NCBI GenBank assembly: GCA_947475715.1
Contig: CANJNY010000012.1
Span: 1 to 64,000, forward strand
Direction of reading: 5' to 3'
Length of the DNA stretch: 64,000 nucleotides
Origin: Prolixibacteraceae bacterium
GTDB lineage: Bacteria > Bacteroidota > Bacteroidia > Bacteroidales > Prolixibacteraceae
This document shows, piece by piece, positions 797 through 50,186 of the stretch. The notes beneath the pieces are model-generated. The model had not been told where the DNA came from. It saw only the letters and a list, made by a program, of their open reading frames with translations, and made no database searches. The translations under genes were made by a program, and so were the position numbers. Position 1 is the first letter of the stretch, and each line of letters begins with the position of its first letter.

Positions 797-3772
797 ATGA
801 AGATATATAAACTTGTGTTTCGCAACAGTTCCTCGCTATTTTTTCTTTTCGCTCTTTTTTTGTTCTCTAACTCCAAGGTGGTCTCAGCACAAGGGGGGAT
901 TAAGTTGGAGAAATTTGAGACTTCGAATGCCAAGGTGGTTTTTATGGATCCCAATCTTTCCTATCTGATTCCACATACGGTGAGGTCATTTGAGAATGCT
1001 TTTGCGTTTCATGAGAAATTCTGGGGATACCTCCCCTCAGGGAAGACAAACATGCTCTTTAATGACTTCACCGATGTAGGAGCCGGATCAACAAGTGTGG
1101 TTCCCTGGAATCTGCTGAATATCGCGGTAGCTCCCTATGATTATACCTTTTCAGTAATACCATCCAACGAACGGTTGCAATGGGTGATGAGTCATGAGCT
1201 AACTCATCAGGTGATTAGCGACAAATCATCGAAGTCTGATAACCTTTTTCGTTCGCTTTTGGGCGGAAAAATTTTAACCGATAACAGTGATCCGATTTCG
1301 ATGGTTTACAGTTATTTCACTACCCCACGGTGGTTTTCTCCGCGATGGTATCATGAGGGAATTGCTACTTTTATGGAGACCTGGATGTCGGGAGGCGTTG
1401 GGCGTGTAATGGGGGGGTACGACGAAATGGTGTTTCGTACCATGGTGCACGACAGTGCCTTTTTTTACAATGTTATTGGCCTTGAAACGGAAGGGACCAC
1501 AATCGATTTTCAGGTTGGGGTCAATTCATATCTTTATGGCACCCGTTTCGTAAGCTATCTGGCCCATGAGTATGGAATTGAAAAACTAAAAGCATTCTAT
1601 TCCAGGAGCGATTCCAGCAAACGCTTTTACGCTGCTCAGTTTAAACAGGTCTATGGTGTGCCGGTGCACGAAGAGTGGGATAAATGGATTGCCTTTGAGC
1701 ATAAATTTCAGCAGGAGAATTTGAACCAGATCCGGAAATCCCCGGTCACAGCTTTCCGTAAAATTACCACTAAAACACTGGGTTCAGTTTCCAGGCAATA
1801 TTATGATCCGGAATCAAAAAAGCTCCTGGTCGCCGTTAATTATCCCGGAAAACTAGCTAGCATTGCAACTATTGATATGGTTTCCGGGAAGATAAGCAAA
1901 ATAGCACCGGTTGAAACTCCCAGTTTGTTTTTTGTAACCAACCTGGCCTATGACCATTCAACGGAAACGATATTTACATCCACCAAAAATAAAGACTGGC
2001 GCGGCCTTCAGTCTGTTGATCTAAAAACAGGGGCAACAAAAGAACTTATTGATATTGCACGATGTGGCAACTTGGTTTTTGATTCCAGGGGACACACATT
2101 ATGGGGTATTCATAGCGTAAGCGGACGTAACAGTCTTGTGAGGTTAATGCCTCCGTATAACACCATAAAGACCATTATGATGCTGCCGTTCGGACAGGAT
2201 CTTTCTGATCTGGATATTTCACCCGATGGAACCCTTATTTCAGCCACTCTTTCGGATGTTACCGGAAGTCAGAAATTGGTCGTATATCAAATCGCAGATC
2301 TGATGGCCGGTAAAACAGATCATAAAGATATCTATGAATTTGAGGATAATCCGGCTTCCAATTTCGTTTTTTCACCCGACAGCAAATATCTTTATGGAAC
2401 CTCTTATTATACCGGCGTCTCCAATGTATTTCGTATTTCACTTGAAACGCTGAACGCCCAGCTATTAACCAATTCCGTAACAGGGTTTTTTCGTCCGCTC
2501 CCTGTTTCTGCCGATTCGATGGTTGTTTTTAATTATGACCATGATGGGATGGTCCCCTGTATGATGAAAATAGACACCCTCACTGATGCAAAACCGATTA
2601 CTTATCTGGGTCAGAAGATCGTTGAAAAGTTTCCCGAGGTTAAAAACTGGATCCTCCCTTCACCACTCAAAATCAACCTTGATTCGGTAAAGGTTGTTGA
2701 AAAAGAGTTTTCGCCTCTCAGGGAACTTAAGCTGGCAGGAGCATACCCGATTATCCAGGGGTACAAAGGACAGGTCGCAACAGGGTATCGTTTCCAGTTT
2801 ATGGATCCGATGGGGCTTAATTCACTGAATTTAAAAATGTCATTCACCCCTGCCGATACGTTACCAAGCAAGCAGATCCCCCATCTTTCGGCAGAGTATA
2901 ATTACGTTAACTGGACATTTACAGGAAATTATAATTATGCCGATTTCTACGATCTTTTTGGCCCAACTAAATTTGCAAGAGCCGGTTACTCGTTTTCGAC
3001 CAAATATTATAAACTCATTAACCGTTTCTCACCCAAAAAAACTGATTTTTATGCAAAACTAACGGTATATGGAGATTTGGAAACTCTTCCCAATTATCAG
3101 AATATTGCCTCTGATTACAGAAATCTCTTTATGGGAACAATCAACTATCACAAGAGTTATCTTCGGAAATCGCTGGGAGCCATTGAACCGGAGCAGGGTT
3201 ACAACTGGAATGTATATGGATACAGCAGTTTGGCAGGAAAAACGTTTTACCCACAATTAATTAACAATTTTGACTTTGGCTTTCTATTACCGGCGAAAAA
3301 CTCTTCGTTATGGTTCCGCACATCGCTCGGGCAATCGTTTGGTGAATCGGATAAATCAAATTCCTATTTTTACTTTGGTGGATTTGGGAATAACTACCTG
3401 GACTATCGATCATCACAGCAATATCGCAATATGGCGAGCTTCCCCGGGATGAAAATTGATGAAATTTCGGCCCTGAATTACGGAAAGGTATCGATGGAGC
3501 TAAATTTAACACCGGTCCGGTTTCGGAAATTAGGTTTTAAAGGACTTTATTCTACCTACGCCCGAATGACAATTTTCGGAATGGGAATGGCCACGAATCT
3601 GAATTATAATCAACCACAAATCAAACAGCTTAATTATTATTCTGCTGGAAGTCAGGTAGATATTGAGATTGTTATCTTCTCTTTGCTTAAGTCGACCCTC
3701 TCTTTTGGTTATGCAAAAGCTTACCGGCCGACTAACTCGCATGATGAATTTATGGTTTCTTTAAAATTGTAA
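797..3772 (+). CDS. exported gluzincin-like peptidase with TolB-like propeller and barrel-like C-terminus
   Basis: The frame is open further upstream, but the ATG at 797 starts a clear signal peptide (MKIYKLVF, hydrophobic core, cleavage after VSAQ), so I use it. Residues 133-137 read HELTH, the HExxH zinc motif, and the third ligand may be the Glu in WYHEGIA at about residue 187; this layout is typical of the peptidase MA/M1-like gluzincins. Residues ~310-600 look like a WD40/TolB-type beta-propeller (repeated FSPDSKYLYG-like segments). The last ~330 residues are rich in alternating aromatic/polar strands like an outer-membrane or surface barrel. Predicted location: periplasm or outer membrane. 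Substrate unknown; the gene may be separate from the downstream locus, which starts 76 bp later. Confidence 0.8.
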   Translation: MKIYKLVFRNSSSLFFLFALFLFSNSKVVSAQGGIKLEKFETSNAKVVFMDPNLSYLIPHTVRSFENAFAFHEKFWGYLPSGKTNMLFNDFTDVGAGSTSVVPWNLLNIAVAPYDYTFSVIPSNERLQWVMSHELTHQVISDKSSKSDNLFRSLLGGKILTDNSDPISMVYSYFTTPRWFSPRWYHEGIATFMETWMSGGVGRVMGGYDEMVFRTMVHDSAFFYNVIGLETEGTTIDFQVGVNSYLYGTRFVSYLAHEYGIEKLKAFYSRSDSSKRFYAAQFKQVYGVPVHEEWDKWIAFEHKFQQENLNQIRKSPVTAFRKITTKTLGSVSRQYYDPESKKLLVAVNYPGKLASIATIDMVSGKISKIAPVETPSLFFVTNLAYDHSTETIFTSTKNKDWRGLQSVDLKTGATKELIDIARCGNLVFDSRGHTLWGIHSVSGRNSLVRLMPPYNTIKTIMMLPFGQDLSDLDISPDGTLISATLSDVTGSQKLVVYQIADLMAGKTDHKDIYEFEDNPASNFVFSPDSKYLYGTSYYTGVSNVFRISLETLNAQLLTNSVTGFFRPLPVSADSMVVFNYDHDGMVPCMMKIDTLTDAKPITYLGQKIVEKFPEVKNWILPSPLKINLDSVKVVEKEFSPLRELKLAGAYPIIQGYKGQVATGYRFQFMDPMGLNSLNLKMSFTPADTLPSKQIPHLSAEYNYVNWTFTGNYNYADFYDLFGPTKFARAGYSFSTKYYKLINRFSPKKTDFYAKLTVYGDLETLPNYQNIASDYRNLFMGTINYHKSYLRKSLGAIEPEQGYNWNVYGYSSLAGKTFYPQLINNFDFGFLLPAKNSSLWFRTSLGQSFGESDKSNSYFYFGGFGNNYLDYRSSQQYRNMASFPGMKIDEISALNYGKVSMELNLTPVRFRKLGFKGLYSTYARMTIFGMGMATNLNYNQPQIKQLNYYSAGSQVDIEIVIFSLLKSTLSFGYAKAYRPTNSHDEFMVSLKL

Positions 3773-3848
3773 TTTTTTTTTGAACAAATTCGCAACTCTT
3801 TAGGTTATGTAATTTGTAAGGCATAAATTTATTGAATCAGTTACTATA

Positions 3849-6800
3849 ATGGCCCAACTAAAACCGCACGTTAATCCTTTTCCCGGTATCCGAAGTTTTG
3901 AAACGGAGGAGAGCCACTTATTTTTTGGACGCGAGAATCAGATAGCGAATATTGTGTCGGTACTGCATGATACCCATTTCTTAGCTGTAATAGGCTCTTC
4001 AGGAAGTGGTAAATCGTCTCTTATCAGGGCAGGTGTTATTCCGACTATTCTGAGGAGTGAGATTAATAACCAAAATGACTGGGATATTACCGTTTTTAAA
4101 CCGGGGGATAATCCTATACGCTCTTTTGCTACTCAATATACTCAGCTTTTAAACCGAAAAGCCAAATCAAAAGGGAGTGCCTTAGTAAAGGCTGAAGATA
4201 TTGATCAGTTGTTGCGTAACGATGCCAATCCGATTTCGAAAGTTCATAAGGAGCTGGGATCAAATCCATGGCTTATCGTAATTGACCAGTTTGAGGAGAC
4301 ATTCAGATACCAAAAACATCTGAATTATGAGGCAGAAAAGGAGGCAACCATCTTTTTTGTCAATTTGTTTCTTGATCTGGTGAATCAAAATAATTTTGAG
4401 GCTCCTATCTATATCATGTTGACGATGAGATCCGATTTCCTGGATCCTTGTACCGAAATACCCGGCCTTACAGAGGCGATTAATAAGGGGCATTTTCTGG
4501 TTCCACGAATGAATTCTCAATCCCTTCACGATGCCATTGTAAAACCGGTAAAGGTTAATGGGGATACTATTTCACCTGAATTGGTTAAACGGCTGATTGC
4601 CGATTTGGGAGACAAAACGGATCAGTTACCTGTAATGCAGCATGCCTTAATGCGGGCATGGGATTACTGGAATATCAACCGGATCGGTGATCAGCCATTG
4701 GATCTGCTCCATTATGAAGCTGTTGGGACAATCAATTCGGCGCTTTCATTGCATGCTGAAGAGATCTTTAATCAACTCAATAAAGAGGAGCTAAAAAAAG
4801 ATACCGAGCGGTTATTTAAAGCGCTTACAGATTTAGGGGCAGAGAACAGGGGTATCAGAAGACCCACCACGTTTAGCGATATTCAGAAGACTATCAATTG
4901 TTCGGAGAGCGATTTGCTTGAAATTATTGAACAATTCAGGGCCCCGGGAAGAGCATTCCTGATGCCTCCCCATTATATTCCTATCCAACCTCAAACAATG
5001 ATTGATATCTCGCACGAGAGTATCATGCGTGTATGGGAGAGACTTCGGGAGTGGGTCGATGAGGAGACCAAATCGGCGGAATTGTATTTGCGTTTATCCC
5101 GATCGTCAGAGTTATACCAGCAGGGTAAATCGGGGTTATGGACAAATCCTGAACTGGAGATTGGGGTTAAATGGAAACAGAAGAATAAACCAACACCTTT
5201 TTGGGGTGAACGGTATGATCCCGGTTTTGAACGGGCGATCGATTTTCTCGATTATAGTAAGAAGGAATATGACTTCGAAATCAAAAAAAAGGAAAATGCT
5301 CAAAAACGAGAGTTAAGCAGGACCCGGAAAATAGTAGTTTTCTTAAGTATTGCCTCGATTATTTCTATTCTCTTTCTGATTATTTCGGTAGATTCAAAAT
5401 TAAAAGTCGATGCCAGCAGTAAGATTATCGTAGAAAAAGGGGTTGAGCTGGAGAGTGAAAATAAAAGGGCAGAGATACAACGTAAAGAGGCTGTAGCGCA
5501 AAAAAGAATTGCCGAACAGCAGCAGAAGATTGCGGAACAACAAAAGTTAATCACCGAAGAGCAAAGACTATTTGCTGTTGCCCAGCAGGATTCTGCTCAG
5601 AAAAGTGAGATGGCAGCTAAAGCAGCCAAAGTTCAGGCAGACTCAGCGGCACAACGGGCTAAACGAAGTGAAATTGTTGCCAAAGCAGCCAAAGTGCTTG
5701 CAGATACCTCCGCACGAAGGGCCGAAAAATCTGCCGATCGGGCCGTTAAGTCGGAAATAAAGACCCAGCGGTTACGACTTCTGGCTATTGCACGTTCAAT
5801 GGCTATTCAATCACAACGTGTGGTAACATCAAATCCTGTATTATCCGCTCTTTTGGCAGGTCATGCCTATATTTTTAACCAGGAGAATGGAGGAAGGAAG
5901 GATGATCCGGACATCTATAATGCCCTTTCAAATGCAGGAGTTGATAAATTGGTTCTTCGCGGGCACAAGGATGCCGTCAGGGGAGTGGCTTTATCAAAAG
6001 ATGGGAAACGGCTTTTCTCAGGCAGTGACGACGGACGTGTATTGGTTTGGTCATTAATCACCCCCCGTGAAAAACCAGGAATCCTAAATACCAATCAACT
6101 TGCATCGAGTGGAATACGATCTCTGGCTGCGGAACAACAGGGGATAGCAGCTGGAACTGCCGATGGGACAATTCTTTATTGGAAAAATGCCGATAAAGGG
6201 AGCCTGCCCCAAAGTGTTGTAGCCCATACCGGAATAATAAATAAGATCAGATTTATTTCAGAAAGTAAGATCGCCACTATTGGAGCTGACGGATTCTGCA
6301 AAATATGGGATTTAAACAATTTTATTCAGCCAATATTTTCTTTCCAAATGGATTCCCCGGTAAAGGATTTGTCGATTTCGGGAGATGGGAAAAAAATTGC
6401 TTTTGGTGATCAGAATGGAATTGTGAAACTGTTTGAGGTTTCAGATTTTAAGCAGAATGCAACGCTGTTTAATACGAAAAAACAACTTATGGCAATATCT
6501 CTTAATAATAATGGAGAATTATTGCTTGTCGGGGATAACACGGGGATGATCAGTTTATTGAATCTCTCAGACCTGAATAAAAGTCCGTTGGAATTTCAGG
6601 ATCATCGTTCAGCGATTACATCCGTTCGGTTTAGCCCGGATAATAAATCTTTTGTGAGCTCAAGTTACGACAATACCATCAGGATATGGAATCCTGAAGA
6701 GCCGAAGCAAAATCCACTTATGGTTACAGGGCACGATTCATGGGTTATGGATGCTCTTTTTACTTCAGATGGGAATCAGCTGGTATCGGCCAGTAATGAC

Positions 6801-9625: not shown

Positions 9626-10466
9626 GGAAATGACAATGGCAGAGATTGGAGCTGGATATATATTCACTAAGCCTAAAAGTATTTGTCAAAAGCTAAATGA
9701 ATGGGAGAAAAGTATTCTCCTTCTTGATAATCACGCCTTTATTAAGGTGTATAAGGAAAAAATTAAGGAAACGATTAATAGTTATGGGTTAAGCCTGAGA
9801 TTGGCAAATTTATCAGATATCGAACCGGTGTATGACTTTATTATATCCCGATTTAATAAGGAATATATTGATGATGTCAGTAAATACGACCTTTTTCGAT
9901 TTATTGAATATGGCCATGGCATAATTGTCGAAGATTCTCAAAACAAAATGTTAGGTTGCCTTTTTGAGGTTGGGTATGAAAAAAAGTGGAAAATCTCCTA
10001 TTCCCTTCGCCTGGGAATTGATGAAACACTCAAAGGGAAAGGACTGGCTAAACTGCTTACCGTTTATTCCTGTCTGCTGGCCATGGAACGTGGAGCCCAA
10101 CTGAAAATTGGTCTGATCAGCATCGATAACCTTGCAAGTCTTCATATTCATGTGAATCAGGTGGGGTGGCTGATTGACAAATTTTACTATAATCTCGATT
10201 CATTAGGGCTTAGTTTTGAATTTAGCCTTCCATTAACACCAGAATCATTACTCAGAAACCGAATCGATCTGAATAAAGTAAATACTTATATTGAAGAAAA
10301 TGTCGAGGGAATTGACTATTTACTCATAAATTATGATGATGTTGAGACCATTAAGTCTGTATATCATAACTCTGAATTTAAAATTGCGGCCATTATCACT
10401 AAAGATTTTAAAGGGGATAAACCTCAGTTTTTTGCATTACCCGTTAAAATGTTATATACCCAATAG
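9615..10466 (+). CDS. GNAT-like acetyltransferase-domain protein
   Basis: The central part (residues ~55-190) resembles a GNAT fold: LRLANLSDIEPVYDFI at its start and GKGLAKLLTVYSCL as the acetyl-CoA-binding region (usually Q/RxxGxG/A, here only partly kept), then ASLHIHVNQVGW. The C-terminal ~90 residues are not recognisable. The start at 9615 overlaps the TonB receptor by 11 nt; ATGs at 9630 and 9636 are alternatives. It is 12 bp upstream of the transporter gene, so it belongs to the same transcript. Acceptor substrate unknown; it could act on a protein of the same locus. Confidence 0.65.
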   Translation: MSSREMTMAEIGAGYIFTKPKSICQKLNEWEKSILLLDNHAFIKVYKEKIKETINSYGLSLRLANLSDIEPVYDFIISRFNKEYIDDVSKYDLFRFIEYGHGIIVEDSQNKMLGCLFEVGYEKKWKISYSLRLGIDETLKGKGLAKLLTVYSCLLAMERGAQLKIGLISIDNLASLHIHVNQVGWLIDKFYYNLDSLGLSFEFSLPLTPESLLRNRIDLNKVNTYIEENVEGIDYLLINYDDVETIKSVYHNSEFKIAAIITKDFKGDKPQFFALPVKMLYTQ

Positions 10467-39619: not shown

Positions 39620-40963
39620 ATGAACCGAAATTTATTCCTCAAAACTGCATCACTTTCTGCTGGCGCCTTATTTACCCCGATCCTTTGGGATAAATTGTTG
39701 GCTAACAACGAAGCTCCAATCAACATCCGGGATTATTTTAAATGGGACAATGAGGATGTAATTTCACTTGCGGAGAATGTTTTCGATAAATGTATTTTTC
39801 ATAAAGTAATGGCTCCGGAAGGGACGCTCCAGCACCGGTGGATAGCGCCGGGTGGGGGTTATAAAGGGCAGTGGATCTGGGATACGATGTTTGTGACCGA
39901 TTTGCTGAGTATTTTCCCCGGTCAAAAGGAGGTTATGCATGAGGTTTTTCAGAATTACCGTGATTTCCAGTTAAGATGGAACAGGTTAAAGCCTGATTAT
40001 GCTCACGATATGATTCCTTGCATGATTGAACCTTTTAATCTGGATAAATGGGTGGAGTATCCGGCCTATTCGCAAATTCCAATTCTGGCGTGGGGATTGG
40101 AGCAGATCTATCGGCGGAACCGGGATATCGCGCTAATCCGCGAAAACATAAAATCACTTGAGGAGTTTCATGAATGGTACTGGCGCGAACGTGATGTGAC
40201 AAATATCGGAATGGTTAGTGTCGGATCGTATAGTGGCGTTGTTCAGCATGCGCGCTTTGAGACCTACGACTTCGACGGGACCCTGGATCACCTTAAACTC
40301 ACCAAACATCCCACCCGCAGCGGCGTAACCGAAGGGGAGTGGTATGGAGATGTCTTAGTGACGGGCAATACCTCTTATCTGGTGATGGCTGAGAAATGTC
40401 TGGTTCGTTTAGCCCGCATTGTGGGTGACCAGGCGATGGCAAAGCGGAGGCAGGTTCGTATTGATAAAAGTGTGGAAGCTGTTCGCAAGTATATGTGGGA
40501 TGAGGAATCTGGGCTTTTTATGGCTCTTAAACGTGATTCGCTTGAGAAGGTTAGAGAGACCAGTGTGGGTTGCTGGATGCCACTTTATGCCGGAATTCCT
40601 ACAAAGGCGATGGCCAAGCGGATGGCTTCAGTACTCGCCTCAGGTTCCTGGCTCACTCCGTTGACTGTTCCTACGATGCCACAGGATGATCCCCGTTATA
40701 AACCGGATGGATTTTGGCGCGGGGATGTGTGGCCGGCATCAACATACCAGATTGCTAGAGGGCTCAAAGATTACGGTTATGACGATCTGGCAGCAAATAT
40801 CGCAGATACCTTAATTGCCAACGCAATAAAAAACGGGGTAAACGAAAGGTATGACTCTCAAACCGGAAAGGGGCTTGGAGTCGATTACCTTGGGATGAGT
40901 TGTACACTCATTACCCTGATGCTTGAAGGGATTAGTCACAAATACCGATTTAGGTTGATTTGA
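39620..40963 (+). CDS. trehalase-like / MGH1-like glycoside hydrolase
   Basis: 447 residues with an N-terminal hydrophobic export signal (FLKTASLSAGALFTPIL). The body is an (alpha/alpha)6-barrel of the GH37/GH63-like group: GGGYKGQWIWDTMFVTDLLS, DMIPCMIEP, PTRSGVTEGEWYGDV, and the signature FWRGDVWPASTYQIARGLKD. Substrate is not predictable; family members cut alpha-glucosides or mannosyl/glucosyl units. Its 3' end overlaps that of the convergent sensor gene by 14 bp. Neighbour to GH51 and to a LytS/LytTR pair that may control both. Confidence 0.85.
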   Translation: MNRNLFLKTASLSAGALFTPILWDKLLANNEAPINIRDYFKWDNEDVISLAENVFDKCIFHKVMAPEGTLQHRWIAPGGGYKGQWIWDTMFVTDLLSIFPGQKEVMHEVFQNYRDFQLRWNRLKPDYAHDMIPCMIEPFNLDKWVEYPAYSQIPILAWGLEQIYRRNRDIALIRENIKSLEEFHEWYWRERDVTNIGMVSVGSYSGVVQHARFETYDFDGTLDHLKLTKHPTRSGVTEGEWYGDVLVTGNTSYLVMAEKCLVRLARIVGDQAMAKRRQVRIDKSVEAVRKYMWDEESGLFMALKRDSLEKVRETSVGCWMPLYAGIPTKAMAKRMASVLASGSWLTPLTVPTMPQDDPRYKPDGFWRGDVWPASTYQIARGLKDYGYDDLAANIADTLIANAIKNGVNERYDSQTGKGLGVDYLGMSCTLITLMLEGISHKYRFRLI

Positions 40964-43900
40964 GTTCCCCTTTCCTCATCTCCAAAGGAAGGTATAGTTC
41001 CACCAATAATCCACATGGATTCCCCTTTTCAGTCAAATCGGTGTAGCCTGTTTTATATTCCGTTGGTGATCCCGGGGAATTGAACAGTTGTATTCGCGAT
41101 TCTGTAATTCGGGTACTATGGGGGCGATCATTAATCGGCGAGGTTCCTCCGCGAATTTTTGCCTGAACTCTTCCAATCCCATTGTCTGATATGGTGCATT
41201 TAAGCAAATTTTCCCCAAGCTTTTCGAAAACAATCGAAAGGTGCCCTTTTCTCATCAATTGTCCAAATCCATGTCGGATTGAATTCTCAGCATAAGGCTG
41301 CACCAACATCGGTGGAATCAGAATAAGGCCATCATTTTCCATATCAATGCAGTCGATCGTATAATCAAACTTATCGGGGAATCGCATTTTTTCCAGCCTC
41401 AGGTAGCTGTTTAGAAATTCAATCTCCTGTTCCAGAGAAATCGTCCGGAGTGTGGCATTTTCCAGTGATTCCCTGACAACCTTTGAAAAGTCAGACAGAT
41501 AGGTCAATACCTCGTCCATTTTATTAGCCAACACATAATACTGAATACCATTTACGCAGTTAAAAATAAAGTGAGGATTCATCTGTGCCTGTAAGGCCTG
41601 CATCTCAAGTTGAACAATTTTCTTTTCAATTTCCGATTTACGGTGTGCCTTATTTCTATCAATTTCTATATATTTCCTTATTGTTGCAGTGACTAAGGCT
41701 AAAATCAGAATAATCCCCACAACCTGAACATACCAAAGCTTCCACCATGGAGGAAGGATTTTAAAATCAATTTTAAGCGGTACTCCCTTTTCAAGGGTCT
41801 GTAAATTATATGATTCTACATTGAACGTATAGTTGCCGGGGGAGAGATTCGTGTAAACAGCCCTGGTTCTTTCACTCCACGGACTCCATCCATGATCGTA
41901 TCCTTCAAGCAGATACCTGAACCGATCTTTCCCTGGATTACGATAATTCAGGATGTCAAACCCAAAAGTCGGATCGTTTTCAAAATAGCGGAGTTTAAAT
42001 TTCTCAACCGGAACCGCCCTCCACAAGTCGAGCCCGCTTTTCAACGTGCTGTCAATCGGTTCATTATTGATTTCCAGAGATTTGAAAATTATATTGCTGC
42101 GATGGTTGCCGATGGTGTCGAACTTGTTTGTATTCAGCATTATAATCCCATCATTTGCTCCAATCCATAAGTGTCTTAGGGGGTCCATCACTGCACTTTT
42201 AGAGGATTGCCCTGAGTATCCCCCCTCTTCATCGAGAAAACGAATACGGTATTCTTTGGTCCGATATAATTGATCGAGATCGATAACGTTTAAGCCCATG
42301 TTGGTCCCCACCCATAATTTGCCATTGCGGTCTGCCAATAGCCAGGAAATACTATTCCCTTGTAACCCATTTTCGCTGGTGATCCGGAATTCAATTTTAA
42401 GCGTTTTATCGGTATAGGTGGCAATATAGACTTCACCGGTATTGGATCCGAAAATCACATGACCTTTTTCATCAAAACAGATCGCATTGAGGTCTTTTGT
42501 TATGGTTGTATCCGATTTGTTAAAGTTGATCAGGTTCATCCCTTCACTAAGCCACAATCCGGTCTCTGAGGAGGTGTACCACAGCTGGTTACCCCGCTTT
42601 ACCAGGCGGGTCACATCCGTTGGATCAACTCCTGTTGTAAACGGGACAAATAATGTCCGGGGGTAATCCCAGTTATGAGTTATTCCGAGCCTACTCTTCC
42701 TAAACCGGGGATTTATTAATGTTGAAAACCATCCTGAGTAAATTAAGGTATCCCCTGTAATGGCTAATTCTGTAGCAGAACCCTCAGGCCCAAGATATTC
42801 TGTTCTTTGGTCCTTTTCAGTATAATGGAATACTCCGAATTCATTGGAGAATAATATGGAATGATCCTGATCCTCAATGACCCGGTAGAAATTAAAATCG
42901 GCGAGCTTTTCGAATTCCGACGAAGGTTGGGTATCCATTTTGCGTAATGCAATACCTGATGCACATTCAGCAGGAAAAGGCAACTGTTTCGGATCATTCC
43001 AGAACTTTTTGAAGGCTAAAATAATCTGATGCTTATTCATCACAGTCATTTTACCGTCAGGCGTCATTCGGGTCAAATCCTTATTCCCCGAAATCCAGAG
43101 GTTGTCCTTCGAATCGAGATAAATATTGTTAATTATGGGTTGTCCCGGACTGAAATAGGAGGCCGGATAATTCGTAACAGGTGTAAACGGGATTCGGAAC
43201 AACCCCTCATTCACCGTACCAACCCACAGAATATCCTGCTCTTTGTCATCGAAAACCGAATATACCTCCTGATCGGTAATTCCAAAGGGAATATTGTAAT
43301 TGCGAAAAGTTTTTCCATCATACCGGATAATACCCCCTTTAAATCTCATTCCCGGAATAGACCAGCCTGCCAGCCAAAGGTCTCCCCGTTTATCCTCCGC
43401 GATCCCAAATATCTGGCCGATAGTATCATTTTTAATGATCTCATTATCCCTGTAAAACCAGGCTCCATTTTTTGTTTGCGAGAAAACGGTATCTTTTTTT
43501 GTGGTAAGATAGGACGAGAAACTATGACTTGGATAGTAAACACCACTGTCGTGTACTGAGATATATTTATTCTGATCGGGATAATAACGTATAGGACTAT
43601 AGTGGTTATAGGTCGTGATATACATAAATTTTCCGGCATCCATTAAGCTGGTAACACAGCCAAAATAGATATTCCCGAGCGCTTTATCGCCCACAGAACT
43701 TTTAAATTTTCCATCTTTGATTGTCGTTATTCCATCATAACCTCCTGCAACCAGACAATGAAGGGATGGAGAATAACAAAGTACCCTGACACGGTCATCG
43801 GCCATGCCGTTCTTTTTGGTAAACCGTTCGAAATGTTTACCATCATATTTGTAGAGCCCTTCACCCAGACTTCCAATCCAGATATTCCCCTGTTCATCCT

Positions 43901-44156
43901 CGGCTAAGGCCCGTATCTGACTGGCAGTCATTCCTTCTGCGGACTTGTATATTCGGAATGACCGGCCATCAAATGAGCATAGCCCTGCATCGGTTCCGAT
44001 CCATAACAAGCCACGGGTGTCTTTGTAAATGCATCGGATAGCCATGCTGGGGAGGCCGTCGCGCATCGTAAAATGACGGGTGGGATAGGTCTGTGCAGAG
44101 AGTAATGGCGCATAAAGACAAATCAACAGCACAAGCCATCGACTCAACCGCGACAT
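40950..44156 (-). CDS. Reg_prop/Y_Y_Y sensor with LytS-type histidine kinase
   Basis: ATG 44156 opens the signal peptide (MSRLSRWLVLLICLYAPLLS). Two Reg_prop propellers (RHFTMRDGLPSMAIRCIYKD, LLWIGTDAGLCSFDG and repeats) and a Y_Y_Y domain precede one membrane helix, a coiled coil and a His_kinase/LytS core: QMNPHFIFNCVNGIQY with His862, then a HATPase domain with MLVQPYAENSIRHGF and DNGIGR. This layout is common for Bacteroidota sensors of polysaccharide fragments. Its cognate regulator is the LytTR gene upstream on the same strand; the glycosidases next door are natural targets. Confidence 0.92.
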   Translation of the reverse strand: MSRLSRWLVLLICLYAPLLSAQTYPTRHFTMRDGLPSMAIRCIYKDTRGLLWIGTDAGLCSFDGRSFRIYKSAEGMTASQIRALAEDEQGNIWIGSLGEGLYKYDGKHFERFTKKNGMADDRVRVLCYSPSLHCLVAGGYDGITTIKDGKFKSSVGDKALGNIYFGCVTSLMDAGKFMYITTYNHYSPIRYYPDQNKYISVHDSGVYYPSHSFSSYLTTKKDTVFSQTKNGAWFYRDNEIIKNDTIGQIFGIAEDKRGDLWLAGWSIPGMRFKGGIIRYDGKTFRNYNIPFGITDQEVYSVFDDKEQDILWVGTVNEGLFRIPFTPVTNYPASYFSPGQPIINNIYLDSKDNLWISGNKDLTRMTPDGKMTVMNKHQIILAFKKFWNDPKQLPFPAECASGIALRKMDTQPSSEFEKLADFNFYRVIEDQDHSILFSNEFGVFHYTEKDQRTEYLGPEGSATELAITGDTLIYSGWFSTLINPRFRKSRLGITHNWDYPRTLFVPFTTGVDPTDVTRLVKRGNQLWYTSSETGLWLSEGMNLINFNKSDTTITKDLNAICFDEKGHVIFGSNTGEVYIATYTDKTLKIEFRITSENGLQGNSISWLLADRNGKLWVGTNMGLNVIDLDQLYRTKEYRIRFLDEEGGYSGQSSKSAVMDPLRHLWIGANDGIIMLNTNKFDTIGNHRSNIIFKSLEINNEPIDSTLKSGLDLWRAVPVEKFKLRYFENDPTFGFDILNYRNPGKDRFRYLLEGYDHGWSPWSERTRAVYTNLSPGNYTFNVESYNLQTLEKGVPLKIDFKILPPWWKLWYVQVVGIILILALVTATIRKYIEIDRNKAHRKSEIEKKIVQLEMQALQAQMNPHFIFNCVNGIQYYVLANKMDEVLTYLSDFSKVVRESLENATLRTISLEQEIEFLNSYLRLEKMRFPDKFDYTIDCIDMENDGLILIPPMLVQPYAENSIRHGFGQLMRKGHLSIVFEKLGENLLKCTISDNGIGRVQAKIRGGTSPINDRPHSTRITESRIQLFNSPGSPTEYKTGYTDLTEKGNPCGLLVELYLPLEMRKGELKST

Positions 44157-44189
44157 TAAATTCTTATATCTGCCTGTATAATAATGCAT

Positions 44190-44500: not shown

Positions 44501-45253
44501 TCACCGATGTGTCAGAGCCCTGATAAAATCATCGTTTCTGCGACTTGCCACATCCAGCTTTGTACCATCCTCCAGCAACACATGAAACCCTTCGGCCCGG
44601 CTGTATGACTTAATAAAATTGAGGTTTACCAGGTGGGACTTATGAATCCGGTAAAACAGGTTGGCAGGAAGCAGACTCTCGATTGAGTTAAGCGGCTTCG
44701 AAATCAGTAATACCCCTCCATTAATAGTAAATACTCTTGTATAGTTTTGATCCGCAAGACAATATACTATGGAGTTTATTTTTTCAAGTTGAAATCCGTG
44801 TAATGTGGGAAGTGCAACTTTAGCCACAATTGGAGCGTCGGGATTTAATACACTGACCAGTTTTTCGATACTCATGGCGGGCACACCGGATAAGTGCCGC
44901 TTCTCATGTAGCCCGATAGCCTCTTTAAGGTCATCAACACTTACTGGTTTTAGGATATAGTCGAGTGCTGCCACCTTAATGGCTTTTATGGCATACTCCT
45001 TATAGGCAGTTGTGAAAATAACCGAAAAGGTAACCTCTTGAAAATAGTCAAAAATCTTAAATCCATTTTCAACGGGCATCTCAATATCGAGAAATACCAG
45101 ATCCGGTTTGTGTTTATAAATGATAAATACCCCCTCTTTTAGCGATTCGGCCTTTCCCACGACCTTTATTTTTTCGGGAAAATAGCGCGACAACATAAGC
45201 TCCAGAGAATCTCTGGCAGGTTTTTCATCATCGATAATAACACAGCTGATCAT
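44501..45253 (-). CDS. LytTR-family response regulator
   Basis: Receiver domain with acidic Asp8/Asp9, phosphoacceptor Asp56 in VFLDIEMPVENGF and Lys in ILKPVSVDDL. Residues ~150-250 are a LytTR DNA-binding domain (INSIVYCLADQNYTRVF, RIHKSHLVNLNFI, LEDGTKLDVASRRNDDFIRA). It is transcribed just before the sensor gene. GATCTTTG on the minus strand (45284-45277) is one mismatch from a -7 box 24 nt upstream of the start. Confidence 0.95.
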   Translation of the reverse strand: MISCVIIDDEKPARDSLELMLSRYFPEKIKVVGKAESLKEGVFIIYKHKPDLVFLDIEMPVENGFKIFDYFQEVTFSVIFTTAYKEYAIKAIKVAALDYILKPVSVDDLKEAIGLHEKRHLSGVPAMSIEKLVSVLNPDAPIVAKVALPTLHGFQLEKINSIVYCLADQNYTRVFTINGGVLLISKPLNSIESLLPANLFYRIHKSHLVNLNFIKSYSRAEGFHVLLEDGTKLDVASRRNDDFIRALTHR

Positions 45254-45767
45254 AGGATGTTAGTTTTGCAGCGATACAAAGATCGGTTTAAAGTTTGGCT
45301 AAAGTAATGTAAGTTTTTGATTGCTATTAAAGCAGGGTGAAATCCCGAAAAAATAGTTCAAATCCCTGAAAAACCCGGATGATTAAGGCGTCGAATACTC
45401 AAAAATGGAATGAATTCTATCATTCCGGAAAAATTTATTTAGGGCGGTAGAGCACGAAATTATCGAAATATCAATTGATTGAGTAACAACACCAGCAATC
45501 GATCCGGGTAGGAATTTATTTTTCTTTTTTAATTATTATGATACTAAAACCAGAATACGTACAAAACTAACGGATAAATCGAATAGTCTTTGGTTCAATG
45601 TATAAACGAACAAATTCAGAGGGTTACCGTCTAGGTTCATTGATTTAACGCGAAAAGAGGTGGTTGTCATTTTTGGAGTCCATCGGCGGAGAAATCGGTG
45701 TTTAACCCCTTAGTTGACCAATGGAACCAGAGAAAGAGATTTCTGCCGTTCAAAACCAAAAGAATAT
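45254..45767. other. 514-bp gene-free stretch
   Basis: AT-rich upstream region of the LytTR gene. I see no ORF with coding character or RNA. ATTGATTTAACG at 45639-45650 recurs at 47060-47071, flanking the two-gene set between them. Confidence 0.4.
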
Positions 45768-46040
45768 TTAATCAAGTTGCCACCCGTCATCCAGAAGTTC
45801 ATCGATTGTTGCATATTCAATGATTATTTCCCGTTCTCCTGAATCGAAGGAGTTGCCCGATCCGATAGGACAGCCCCGGATCGAAAACTTATTATCTACA
45901 ACATCATCATATGATATATAGGGGGTTAACTCAGCAAACCGATCAATGCAATAAGTTGGATGGTGCTTGAAAATGGGAGCAAAGGCAGCTTCCTTGAATA
46001 TTGAAATTAATCTTTTCTTCTGATGATTTTTATTGTCCAT
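45768..46040 (-). CDS. hypothetical protein
   Basis: 90 residues, no signal peptide, no family recognised. It starts 11 bp downstream of the WecA/MraY-like gene on the same strand, so they likely share a transcript. The C-terminus is acidic (ATIDELLDDGWQLD). The basic first ten residues (MDNKNHQKKR) could be a nucleic-acid or membrane contact. Confidence 0.55.
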   Translation of the reverse strand: MDNKNHQKKRLISIFKEAAFAPIFKHHPTYCIDRFAELTPYISYDDVVDNKFSIRGCPIGSGNSFDSGEREIIIEYATIDELLDDGWQLD

Positions 46041-46051
46041 TTAAATATTAA

Positions 46052-46966
46052 CTAATTAGCATTTTGGTTATTATCCCTTTTAGGGAGATGAAGTCTTTTA
46101 CCGGAAGTGATTTCTGAATATGACCTCGCAACAGCCCTTTCCCGGTCTTGTTCCAGCTTGTTAATCAGCTGATTATGGCGAACCAATTCGGCCCTTGATA
46201 TAATCAGAATTGCCGAAAAAATGGGAAGTAAAATCATAACAGCTAAGAATCCGGAATTTGGCAACTTATAGATTGCGAATTCATTAGCCCGGGTAATTAG
46301 CAGCGAGATTATCATTCCCATGAAAATAGCCCCGGTATTTCCCATTGCAATTATATTTTGCTTGTCGTAATAATTATAGAGTGAAAACCCGGCAATTGAT
46401 CCAACCAGCGCAAAAGATAGAATTGCATAATCGGCACGACCTCTGACCGCAAACCAACAACCCAGAACCAATGCAACCACCGTACTCAGTCTGGTCGCGT
46501 GCCCATATATTTGGTGTATCAGGCTAAATAAACTGATTGTAAATATGATAAGAATACAAGTGATAAGGGCTCCGGGATTTATTCCTATCGTATTAAGTCC
46601 AAATAAACCGTGTAGGCCTGTTATCCGTATTTTCGCAGGAAAGATGAGTAAAAAGACCATTAATAGTCTGTAAATTATATTTTTAATCAGTGATGATGGC
46701 AAGATATCATCCTTTAAACCTTTGAAAAAGATAACCATTGTGGCAATAATAATATAGTTAAACTCGGGCAGTGCTAAGTTATATAATCCAATTGCAGAGG
46801 CCAAAATAAAACTTATAAAAATCGCAATCTCTCCAAGCCTTGGAACAGGCTTTAGATGGGAGTGGAAGTGATATGGAAACCAGGGACCCACAAGTTGAGT
46901 CATCGTCAACATCGAGATTCCTAGTGCTCCAAGGAAAGTGGTGGCCAGATGGGTCAGAATTTGCAT
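46052..46966 (-). CDS. WecA/MraY-family (PNPT) membrane protein with lost catalytic residues
   Basis: 304 residues with ~10 membrane helices and family landmarks: KPVPRLGEIAIF after the first helix (usual P-I-P-R-x-G-G-x-x-x-F) and the DD pair GLKDDI (Asp86/Asp87; usual GLxDD). The catalytic loop that is normally N-A-x-N-L-I-D-G-x-D-G-L-A reads S-L-F-S-L-I-H-Q-I-Y-G-H-A (residues 145-157): both Asn and both Asp are gone. The later GDTGS motif is GNTGA. The fold therefore looks kept but sugar-phosphate transfer to undecaprenyl phosphate unlikely. A lipid-carrier-binding, scaffold or altered-chemistry role is possible. Confidence 0.82.
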   Translation of the reverse strand: MQILTHLATTFLGALGISMLTMTQLVGPWFPYHFHSHLKPVPRLGEIAIFISFILASAIGLYNLALPEFNYIIIATMVIFFKGLKDDILPSSLIKNIIYRLLMVFLLIFPAKIRITGLHGLFGLNTIGINPGALITCILIIFTISLFSLIHQIYGHATRLSTVVALVLGCWFAVRGRADYAILSFALVGSIAGFSLYNYYDKQNIIAMGNTGAIFMGMIISLLITRANEFAIYKLPNSGFLAVMILLPIFSAILIISRAELVRHNQLINKLEQDRERAVARSYSEITSGKRLHLPKRDNNQNAN

Positions 46967-47178
46967 CTCAAATTAATTTGAACAAACTTATCTGTTTAAA
47001 TTAATTTCATCCAAACCAATGTATAATCGTCCTTTTCTTGTGGATGAACGTCCGGTATGATTGATTTAACGTAAAATGGGATATTTGAATAAATCAGATA
47101 AAAACTCGTGGAATTTGTTTATATTTAGGTATTAAAGAGGTCAACGATCATTGAACTCGACTAAAAAATATAAGCAAG

Positions 47179-47457
47179 ATGAAAAATTACGATTATACAC
47201 TCAACGCAATTGAAATCCTGAAACAGGAGAACAAATCAAAGGTCCGGACTGTAAAACTGCATTTACTTAAAGATGAAATTGATAATCTTGAGACTACCCT
47301 TGAATATAAAAAGGGGCGGATATACCCTGGAATCAATATTGTTGAATCTTACGAAAATAATCTCCTGAATGAATTTTTCGGGAGTGACGACATGGATTAT
47401 ATTGAAAGGGGAGTTAAGGTTTTAAAGAATGCAATCAGCCAGGCGATAAAGGCTTAA
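47179..47457 (+). CDS. hypothetical protein
   Basis: 92 residues, soluble, helical with basic and acidic patches (YTLNAIEILKQENKSKVRTV, MDYIERGVKVLKNAIS). No family recognised. A TATATTTA box about 60 nt upstream may be its promoter. It converges with the ROK gene 64 bp away. Confidence 0.6.
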   Translation: MKNYDYTLNAIEILKQENKSKVRTVKLHLLKDEIDNLETTLEYKKGRIYPGINIVESYENNLLNEFFGSDDMDYIERGVKVLKNAISQAIKA

Positions 47458-47521: not shown

Positions 47522-48511
47522 TTAAAACTTATCCTCATAAATGGCAACGCATAATGCAGCATAGTCGCCGATAGCATCCCCCAGTAATGCCGGTTTTATC
47601 TGACATACTTCAAGAGCTGACGGAATTGATTCATAATGGAGGATTCGATCGACAAGAGGCTTAAAAAGCTCTTCATTGCGGGCGTAAATGCTTCCAATTA
47701 CAATGCATTCCGGATTGAGGATATCGATTAAAATGGCGAGTCCATGCCCGAGATATTCCGCCGAGATACGAATAATCTCATAGGCCACAGGATCGCCGGC
47801 CCGGGCTGCCAGAGCCACCCGCTTGGCGGTGATTTTGGGGATCATATTGGATGACGGACAGAAACCGACAGGTTGATTATTTGCCAACCTCTCCGTAACG
47901 ATTGATCTGGCCAACCGGGCAATTCCTCCGCCACTGCAAAATCCCTCGAAGGAGCCGGCCTTTCCAAAACCAACAGGACCTGTTTTTTCAAGTCTGATAT
48001 GACCAACTTCTCCTCCCAGGTCATTCGTGCCACTGTACAATCTGCCATTTAAAATTAATCCGGCCCCCATTCCGGTCTTGAAAGTCAGAAATATCATATT
48101 GGAGGTTCCCTTTCCTGCCCCCATTAACCACTCGGCCAGTGCACAGGCATTTGCAATGTTCTGAATGGCCACATCAACCCCAAATTCATCCCTGAAGATT
48201 TTGGATATCGGGACACCATCCCATCCGGGCAAATTGGGAGGGGAGTAGATCATTCCGTTTTTTGAGTCGAGCGGACCACCACAGCTGATTCCAATCCGTT
48301 TCAGATTAAAATCGGGATGTTTTAATAATATCTCATAAATATGCACCTTGAATTCTTCAAGAATTGCTAAGTAGCCCCGCTCAGTATGTGTTTCGAAAGC
48401 ACTCCTGTGGAAAATTATAAAAGATGGGTCTCCAACAACGACACTGCAATGGGTACCTCCAATATTTAATCCAATATATACATCCTTTTGATTGTGTTTT
48501 AGCTCAGTCAT
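47522..48511 (-). CDS. ROK-family sugar kinase-like protein lacking the zinc-binding cysteines
   Basis: 329 residues: ATP site GLNIGGTHCSVVVGD (usual GxDIGGTK), sugar-binding ISCGGPLDS, NIANACALAEWLMGAG, the catalytic region TFKTGMGAGLILNG and LGGEVGHIRL with the conserved His. The ROK zinc motif CxCGxxGCxE reads GFGKAGSFE here, so all three cysteines are missing. It could still be a kinase or a sugar-binding protein; without an N-terminal helix-turn-helix it is not a NagC-type repressor. Candidate operators lie directly upstream. Confidence 0.88.
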   Translation of the reverse strand: MTELKHNQKDVYIGLNIGGTHCSVVVGDPSFIIFHRSAFETHTERGYLAILEEFKVHIYEILLKHPDFNLKRIGISCGGPLDSKNGMIYSPPNLPGWDGVPISKIFRDEFGVDVAIQNIANACALAEWLMGAGKGTSNMIFLTFKTGMGAGLILNGRLYSGTNDLGGEVGHIRLEKTGPVGFGKAGSFEGFCSGGGIARLARSIVTERLANNQPVGFCPSSNMIPKITAKRVALAARAGDPVAYEIIRISAEYLGHGLAILIDILNPECIVIGSIYARNEELFKPLVDRILHYESIPSALEVCQIKPALLGDAIGDYAALCVAIYEDKF

Positions 48512-49448: not shown

Positions 49449-50186
49449 TTGTCCTTGCTTGTACAGGCAATGGGGAGTAGTGAACTTTACGCCAAAATCA
49501 TTGAAGTTGGGAACTCGAAATTATCAGAATATGTAATTCATAGAAAATTAGTTTTGGACCTTTTTGGTAAACTATTAAAACGAAAAGCGACCGAAAAAGC
49601 AATTCACTGTTTAATATTTCCGCTTCAAACGCTATCTGATGATATAGGATTTGAAGACCATAACCTTTGGATGTTAGACGAGAAACTTTCTTATCATAAA
49701 TATTTGGCTTCCGACAAATCCTTCAAAAAGATTAAGCCAGTAAATTCTGAATCCAAAGACAGACCTGATATAGTCATTTTCAATAAACCATTTGCTTTCT
49801 CCAATGATGAAAAACCATATGAATCCATTGTACTCATCGAGTTTAAAAGACCAATGAGAGATGATTACACTGATCAGGAAAATCCAATCTCACAGATAAA
49901 TAAGTATGCAAGGGAGATTATTGATGGTGAGGCAAAAGACAAACATGATAGAGAGTTTGACTGTAGGCCAAATACACCTCTTTATGCCTATATTATTTGT
50001 GATTTGACCAAAAAATTGAAAGCGTTTGCAAAAGATGCCGGTTACAAACTTTCACCCAGCGGTGATGGTTATTTCTCATTCAATGACAACTATAACATGT
50101 ACATTGAAATAATGAGTTTCGACAAAGTGCTCAAGGATTCAAAAGAGAGAAACAGAGTGCTTTTTGAGAAGTTGAATTTGACATAG
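49449..50186 (+). CDS. PD-(D/E)XK-nuclease-like protein, probably a truncated C-terminal part
   Basis: 245 residues from a TTG at 49449; the ATG at 49470 is an alternative and the same frame is open from 49407. The pattern RPDIVIFNKPF ... ESIVLIEFKRP has the Pro-Asp, Glu-x-Lys spacing of a PD-(D/E)XK nuclease core, followed by QINKYAREI and YAYIICDLTKKLKAF. I think similar sequences form the C-terminal part of larger ATP-binding proteins, which would make this a truncated gene in a decayed island (inference). Whether it is still active is open. Confidence 0.55.
   Translation: MSLLVQAMGSSELYAKIIEVGNSKLSEYVIHRKLVLDLFGKLLKRKATEKAIHCLIFPLQTLSDDIGFEDHNLWMLDEKLSYHKYLASDKSFKKIKPVNSESKDRPDIVIFNKPFAFSNDEKPYESIVLIEFKRPMRDDYTDQENPISQINKYAREIIDGEAKDKHDREFDCRPNTPLYAYIICDLTKKLKAFAKDAGYKLSPSGDGYFSFNDNYNMYIEIMSFDKVLKDSKERNRVLFEKLNLT

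Follow-up and report, generated by a model that had tools for sequence, protein, structure and literature searches.

In a 64,000-nucleotide stretch of DNA from a Prolixibacteraceae bacterium (the window), we found a gene for a membrane protein of the WecA/MraY superfamily that is devoid of the catalytic motifs of its family (pseudo-GT4, 304 amino acids; positions 46052-46966, minus strand), as identified by its open reading frame, Pfam match, and motif comparison. In our judgment, pseudo-GT4 is somewhat more probably than otherwise a real, lineage-restricted pseudoenzyme that was kept after the loss of catalysis and serves as an optional output of a dedicated LytTR system.

The pseudo-GT4 frame begins with ATG and is open over all 304 residues. 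PF00953 (Glycos_transf_4) matched residues 71-225 with 55.3 bits (cut-off 27, E 9.8e-15), and by sequence the protein is a member of the PNPT superfamily. The NCBIfam WecA model TIGR02380 gave 33 bits, the cut-off of the model being 326. As a single protein query, pseudo-GT4 matched no chain among the solved structures; a profile built from nine active relatives and two pseudo copies (that of the window and the orthologue described below) matched MraY structures (4j72, 9zno) with a best E of 2.3e-18. Pseudo-GT4 resembles the WecA/TagO-type polyprenyl-phosphate N-acetylhexosamine-1-phosphate transferases (PF00953; TIGR02380) in the helix pattern of residues ~1-230, in the PxLGxIAIF motif and, in the window copy, in the DD pair, but it differs from them in having neither the N-x-x-DGxDGL loop nor the GDxGS aspartate nor the HHH loop, and about two helices fewer. 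Four further PF00953 genes over the cut-off are present in the genome of the window (5.77 Mb, 315 contigs). Scanning of viral contigs revealed no relatives of pseudo-GT4, and the defence-system (PADLOC) and phage (PHROGs) libraries gave no match to it except one PHROGs hit at chance level.

Residues 86/87 of pseudo-GT4 are DD, and the residues N145, N148, D151, D154, and D210 of active relatives are replaced by S, S, H, Y, and N, respectively. The loop S-L-I-H-Q-I-Y-G-H stands where active relatives read N-L-x-D-G-I-D-G-L, and within the DGIDGL stretch pseudo-GT4 agrees with them at G155 and I153 only. The GDxGS aspartate, a Mg2+ ligand in MraY, is gone (GNTGA), and the C-terminal segment carrying the H.HH (HHH) motif is missing together with about two helices. 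A simple hydropathy count gave nine hydrophobic stretches in pseudo-GT4, seven in its orthologue, and eleven in three active relatives. In the available part of the source, the active site of A. aeolicus MraY comprises D117, D265, and H324 (PMC4790310; see also PMC5039524). Judged by that part, the counterparts of these residues are intact in the active relatives, while the window copy keeps the DD pair only (PMC4790310). The initial annotation had described a WecA/MraY relative without its catalytic Asp and Asn residues, with DD at 86/87, the S-L-I-H-Q-I-Y-G-H loop, and GNTGA; the PF00953 match and the loss of the loop and of the GDxGS aspartate bore out this description, and each of the named motifs was present. 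It had not noted that the HHH loop and about two helices at the C-terminus are missing as well. Structure prediction from an alignment of the window protein and its orthologue (L065) only gave an unusable model (mean pLDDT 43.6, pTM 0.25).

A single orthologue was found, on contig 28 of G015 (CAIXCY010000028.1), a MAG of the same genus, among the same neighbour genes. Five genes stand in the same order in the window and in G015, encoding a sensor (78% identity), a LytTR regulator (87%), a 90-amino acid protein (66%), the GT4 protein (52%), and a sugar kinase (90%). The two GT4 proteins align over 304 residues with zero gaps, and neither gene contains a stop. In the orthologue, DD has become DE, the loop is SLIDNTSKPAS, and GKMGA stands in place of GDTGS; position 210 is K where the window copy has N, and the H.HH loop is likewise absent. 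The orthologue thus retains D151, but its DD pair is without the second Asp. The loss of catalytic residues is, on the evidence of the two sequences, common to both copies, and the replacement letters differ. The annotation had reasoned that orthologues keeping the Asp residues would mark a decayed gene. Since the orthologue also lacks catalytic residues, the case is not that of a single decayed gene, but D151 was retained there. The DD pair described as remaining does so in the window copy and is not conserved in the pair (DE in the orthologue), and the changed loop did not prove to be conserved among orthologues, reading SLIHQIYGHATR in one and SLIDNTSKPASI in the other. Because the same C-terminal part is missing and the alignment is gapless over 304 residues, the loss probably predates the split of the two copies. 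The C-terminal alignment of the copies is weak (14/54 identical); the case for a shared truncation is thus made by the equal length and the absent motif, not by mapped breakpoints.

Motif states were read only for the best matches fetched as loci in the genome, genus, family, and order searches. Among 79 relatives read in this manner, 75 kept every motif (D86, D87, N148, D151, D154, D210, and H.HH), two were cut by locus ends, and the exceptions were pseudo-GT4 and its syntenic orthologue only. Since 75 of the 79 are intact, the losses in pseudo-GT4 exceed the scatter of the family. No third such copy was found in 18 genomes of the genus or 140 of the family (the 140 include the 18), nor among the loci fetched from 393 genomes of the order. 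The GT4 protein had no match when named genomes were scanned, and the sugar kinase matched only the contig of the orthologue, CAIXCY010000028.1. The suggestion of a true subfamily thus holds to the extent that a second non-catalytic copy exists, but its range is two species of one genus, with a 62-amino acid stump in a third genome.

To evaluate selection, we compared the two copies by codon models. The pairwise omega was 0.286 (dN 0.43, dS 1.49), 21.3 log units better than neutral, at a dS of about 1.5, which is near saturation. Residues 1-232 had an omega of 0.236 and a gain over neutrality of 24.7 log units; residues 251-304 showed no significant gain (0.79), and this tail looks unconstrained. 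In a branch model of eight sequences and 273 codon columns (gapped columns left out), the background omega was 0.073 and that of the pseudo clade 0.24, an improvement of 9.4 log units over a single omega. For the orthologue branch, neutrality was rejected by 8.2 log units. The window branch had an omega of 0.39, and likelihood did not separate this value from 1 (difference 1.34 log units). Simulated neutral change on the window sequence produced a mean of 6.5 stops at 0.72 substitutions per codon, and 0.2% of 1000 runs were without any stop; none was observed. These results show that purifying selection acted on the pair, more weakly than in the active relatives, and that selection is clearly relaxed. 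The view that the gene is kept by selection is upheld by the pair and by the orthologue branch, but not by the window branch, where neutrality was not rejected.

The same data bear on a less probable but still substantial alternative, namely that a transferase gene is slowly decaying in a regulated slot, the two open copies being in the course of erosion. The relaxed omega, the result for the window branch, the unconstrained tail (residues 251-304), and the different replacement letters in the two copies agree with such decay. Zero gaps and no stop in copies that are just 52% identical do not, nor does the rejection of neutrality both for the pair and, by 8.2 log units, for the branch of the orthologue, nor the absence of stops from the window branch, on which 6.5 would be expected under neutrality.

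We further examined where the two copies differ. Sites invariant in canonical members were identical between the copies at 24 of 42 positions and other sites at 134 of 259, in a comparison from which the partial L035 was dropped, leaving 28 active relatives. As invariant sites differ between the copies as much as other sites, the catalytic constraint was already gone; this, together with the shared C-terminal absence, indicates that the pairwise omega covers time after the catalytic loss. Three active pairs whose overall identity is similar to that of the pseudo pair served for comparison. Well-conserved sites were chosen using a set to which these active pairs themselves belong (L035 kept), which somewhat favours them; such sites were identical at 49/79 positions in the pseudo pair versus 74, 76, and 77 of 79 in the active pairs. 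At other sites the pseudo pair was identical at 110/225 positions and the active pairs at 92-94/225. Fisher tests against the first active pair gave p values of 1.9e-6 and 0.13 for the well-conserved and other sites, respectively. By blocks, residues 1-25 (the first helix) were identical at 20/25 positions, residues 176-200 at 19/25, and residues 51-75 at 18/25, and the old catalytic loop was among the least conserved stretches (8/25). As judged from these counts, constraint has moved: the catalytic sites are free, and the first helix and block 176-200 are held. We do not claim the conserved helices as a dimer interface; helices 6 and 9, which are said in the available part of PMC10914600 to move at the MraY dimer interface, correspond to stretches among the least conserved in the pair.

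Purifying selection, the DD pair of the window copy, and the D151 of the orthologue could also mean that the protein retains enzymatic activity through an altered or relocated active site, such as one with a metal-independent or hydrolytic reaction on a polyprenyl phosphate. This is very unlikely: the copies have no intact catalytic set in common (DD/DE, H151/D151, N210/K210), the H.HH loop is absent in both, and the old catalytic loop is poorly conserved.

The gene downstream of pseudo-GT4 (45768-46040, minus strand; from ORF and family survey) encodes a 90-amino acid protein of a small family found mostly beside sensor/LytTR gene pairs, and is the second gene of the proposed operon. In the window, 11 nt separate its start from the GT4 stop, a distance that fits co-transcription of the two genes and does not prove it; in the orthologue, the gap is 71 nt. 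The 90-amino acid protein had no Pfam, PADLOC, or PHROGs match. Its family gave thirteen matches in 7 of the 140 family genomes, all of one genus. Seven copies directly adjoin a sensor or LytTR gene (window, L091, L093, L094, L095, L096, and L099), L092 lies about 2 kb off, L097, L098, L100, and L101 are not adjoining, some being near contig ends, and L102 is a fragment at a contig end. By these gene neighbourhoods, the protein goes with LytTR two-component systems and not with the transferase. Co-transcription of the 90-residue protein, as stated in the annotation, is compatible with the 11-nt gap, but the family of this protein tracks the two-component system and not the transferase. At L093 (6254-7192, minus strand), L094 (327-1263, plus strand), and L096 (1413-2442, minus strand), the surroundings of the 90-amino acid gene include a sigma-70-type factor and a small protein with no Pfam match; the genomes of these loci have the same regulator and no full GT4.

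The short distance between the genes in the window would suit a frame that serves as a translated leader for the 90-amino acid protein by coupled translation, its own product being secondary, and the best conserved block of the pair, residues 1-25, is also the part retained in the stump of G010. We hold this to be hardly credible, since distant blocks are nearly as conserved (176-200 and 51-75), the gap in the orthologue is 71 nt, and no leader frame is present in G009 and G012.

In G010, a 62-codon frame stands between the 54-bp element described below and the 90-amino acid gene and then meets a stop. Its match to active GT4 proteins covers their first 59 residues, with 41% identity in the best case (E 1.5e-9, in the set of 79). 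G009 and G012 have the element and the 90-amino acid gene with no GT4 between them. With a stump in G010 and nothing in G009 and G012, GT4 is an optional passenger, and the two species with open copies could represent a step on the way to losing it; under slow decay, the stump at the same place and the absences would be its later stages. Behind the 54-bp element at L149 (G040:C342, another genus; 3082-4287, minus strand), which is likewise a locus of this regulator, a 401-amino acid histidine kinase replaces the GT4 and 90-amino acid genes.

Other genes near pseudo-GT4 were also inspected. The ROK sugar kinase at 47522-48511 (minus strand) is an additional copy: both the window genome and G015 contain another ROK sugar kinase (78% identity) in a different gene setting, and the other genomes of the genus have one each. 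Between GT4 and the kinase lies a 92-amino acid ORF (47179-47457, plus strand), which is absent from the orthologous locus and whose PHROGs matches are weak (best E 0.0023) and of unknown function. A 245-amino acid ORF at 49449-50186 (plus strand; TTG start as listed) matches PHROGs family 6203, of unknown function (E 6e-07).

The adjacent two-component system consists of a LytTR response regulator (44501-45253, minus strand; PF00072 and PF04397) and a sensor histidine kinase assigned by domain match (40950-44189, minus strand; two-component propeller, Y_Y_Y, and His_kinase domains). Pattern search and alignment revealed two copies of a 54-bp operator/promoter-like element on the minus strand, element A at 47018-47071, 51 nt before the GT4 start, and element B at 45597-45650, 343 nt before the regulator gene. 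The element has CGTT boxes exactly 21 bp apart, a third CG, and then TTATACATT; the 21-bp spacing holds in nine aligned sites, and the chance expectation in the window is 0.00. LytTR sites are described in the available part of PMC4847170 as a pair of repeats, each 9-11 nt long, with a spacer of 11-13 nt, and the CGTT boxes before the operon agree with that description (PMC4847170). The region between element B and the regulator (45254-45597) is gene-free over about 343 nt; the corresponding region of the orthologue is 348 nt, with two stretches of 71-76% identity. This gap is a possible regulatory leader, and a decayed 90-amino acid copy sought in it was not seen.

Across the 18 genus genomes, the element occurred at seven places in five genomes, all at the LytTR/GT4 locus. 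Among the 140 family genomes, searched with a pattern different from that for the genus, nine had the element and nine a close relative of the regulator, eight of the nine element genomes being among the latter (hypergeometric 2.7e-11, a figure to which shared inheritance of the locus contributes). G063 had an element match without a close regulator, G031 a regulator without an element match, and G133 an element behind the sensor gene on the opposite strand. In G023 the regulator and sensor are broken into several frames (L150, G023:C1, 6245-8121, plus strand), and an intact-looking element lies kilobases away from them at 9882-9935 (plus strand). We infer from the site pattern and its distribution that the LytTR regulator probably binds the 54-bp element. 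The arrangement resembles YpdA/YpdB-yhjX of E. coli as given in the available part of PMC4847170, with a LytTR regulator, an adjoining kinase, and two spaced repeats before the target operon. It differs from YpdA/YpdB in that the sensor here has a two-component propeller and Y_Y_Y, the target genes are unrelated, and regulator binding is predicted.

Returning to the reading of a retained pseudoenzyme, we propose that a WecA-like sugar-phosphate transferase lost catalysis and its C-terminal catalytic loop before the two species parted, and that the non-catalytic membrane protein would then have been retained. Pseudo-GT4 would be the first gene of a two-gene operon with the 90-amino acid gene, and this operon would be a target of the adjacent LytTR system because an operator-like element precedes it; pseudo-GT4 would therefore be made when the sensor fires. 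It would most likely act as a binding protein whose ligand is either a carrier-linked lipid or a canonical WecA-like protein present in the same cell, and such binding might damp or tune carrier use under the sensed condition. The loss of motifs, the truncation common to both copies, the purifying selection on the pair, the order of the genes, and the conserved element are computed results; regulator binding, co-transcription, the partner, and the physiological role are inferences, and the role itself, the damping of carrier use, is doubtful. More speculative still is an induced decoy, in which a system sensing the envelope or glycans would make a dead PNPT protein that may pair with the live WecA-like enzyme or occupy the carrier-linked lipid, throttling the first step of surface-glycan synthesis. 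The available part of PMC10914600 describes MraY as dimeric, with lipid at the dimer interface, and gives the proposal that externalised lipid II inhibits the enzyme there.

Pseudo-GT4 is like pseudoenzymes in general in that it belongs to a family, is without its conserved catalytic motifs, and, as judged from the pair, has remained under selection. We found no pseudoenzyme of the WecA/MraY superfamily described in the open-licence literature. A probable pseudoenzyme of very narrow range, encoded in a seemingly regulated operon, it is a local curiosity and not a new kind of system. Even if the gene is decaying, the locus presents a LytTR module with a fixed operator-like element and changing genes behind it; the slot was seen to hold the 90-amino acid gene alone, the stump with the 90-amino acid gene, pseudo-GT4 with the 90-amino acid gene, or a histidine kinase. 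How a limited polyprenyl carrier is shared among glycan pathways is an open question, according to the available part of PMC10914600. The first committed step is performed by enzymes of the family of pseudo-GT4, and a regulated member without catalytic function would, if true, be a new way to share the carrier.
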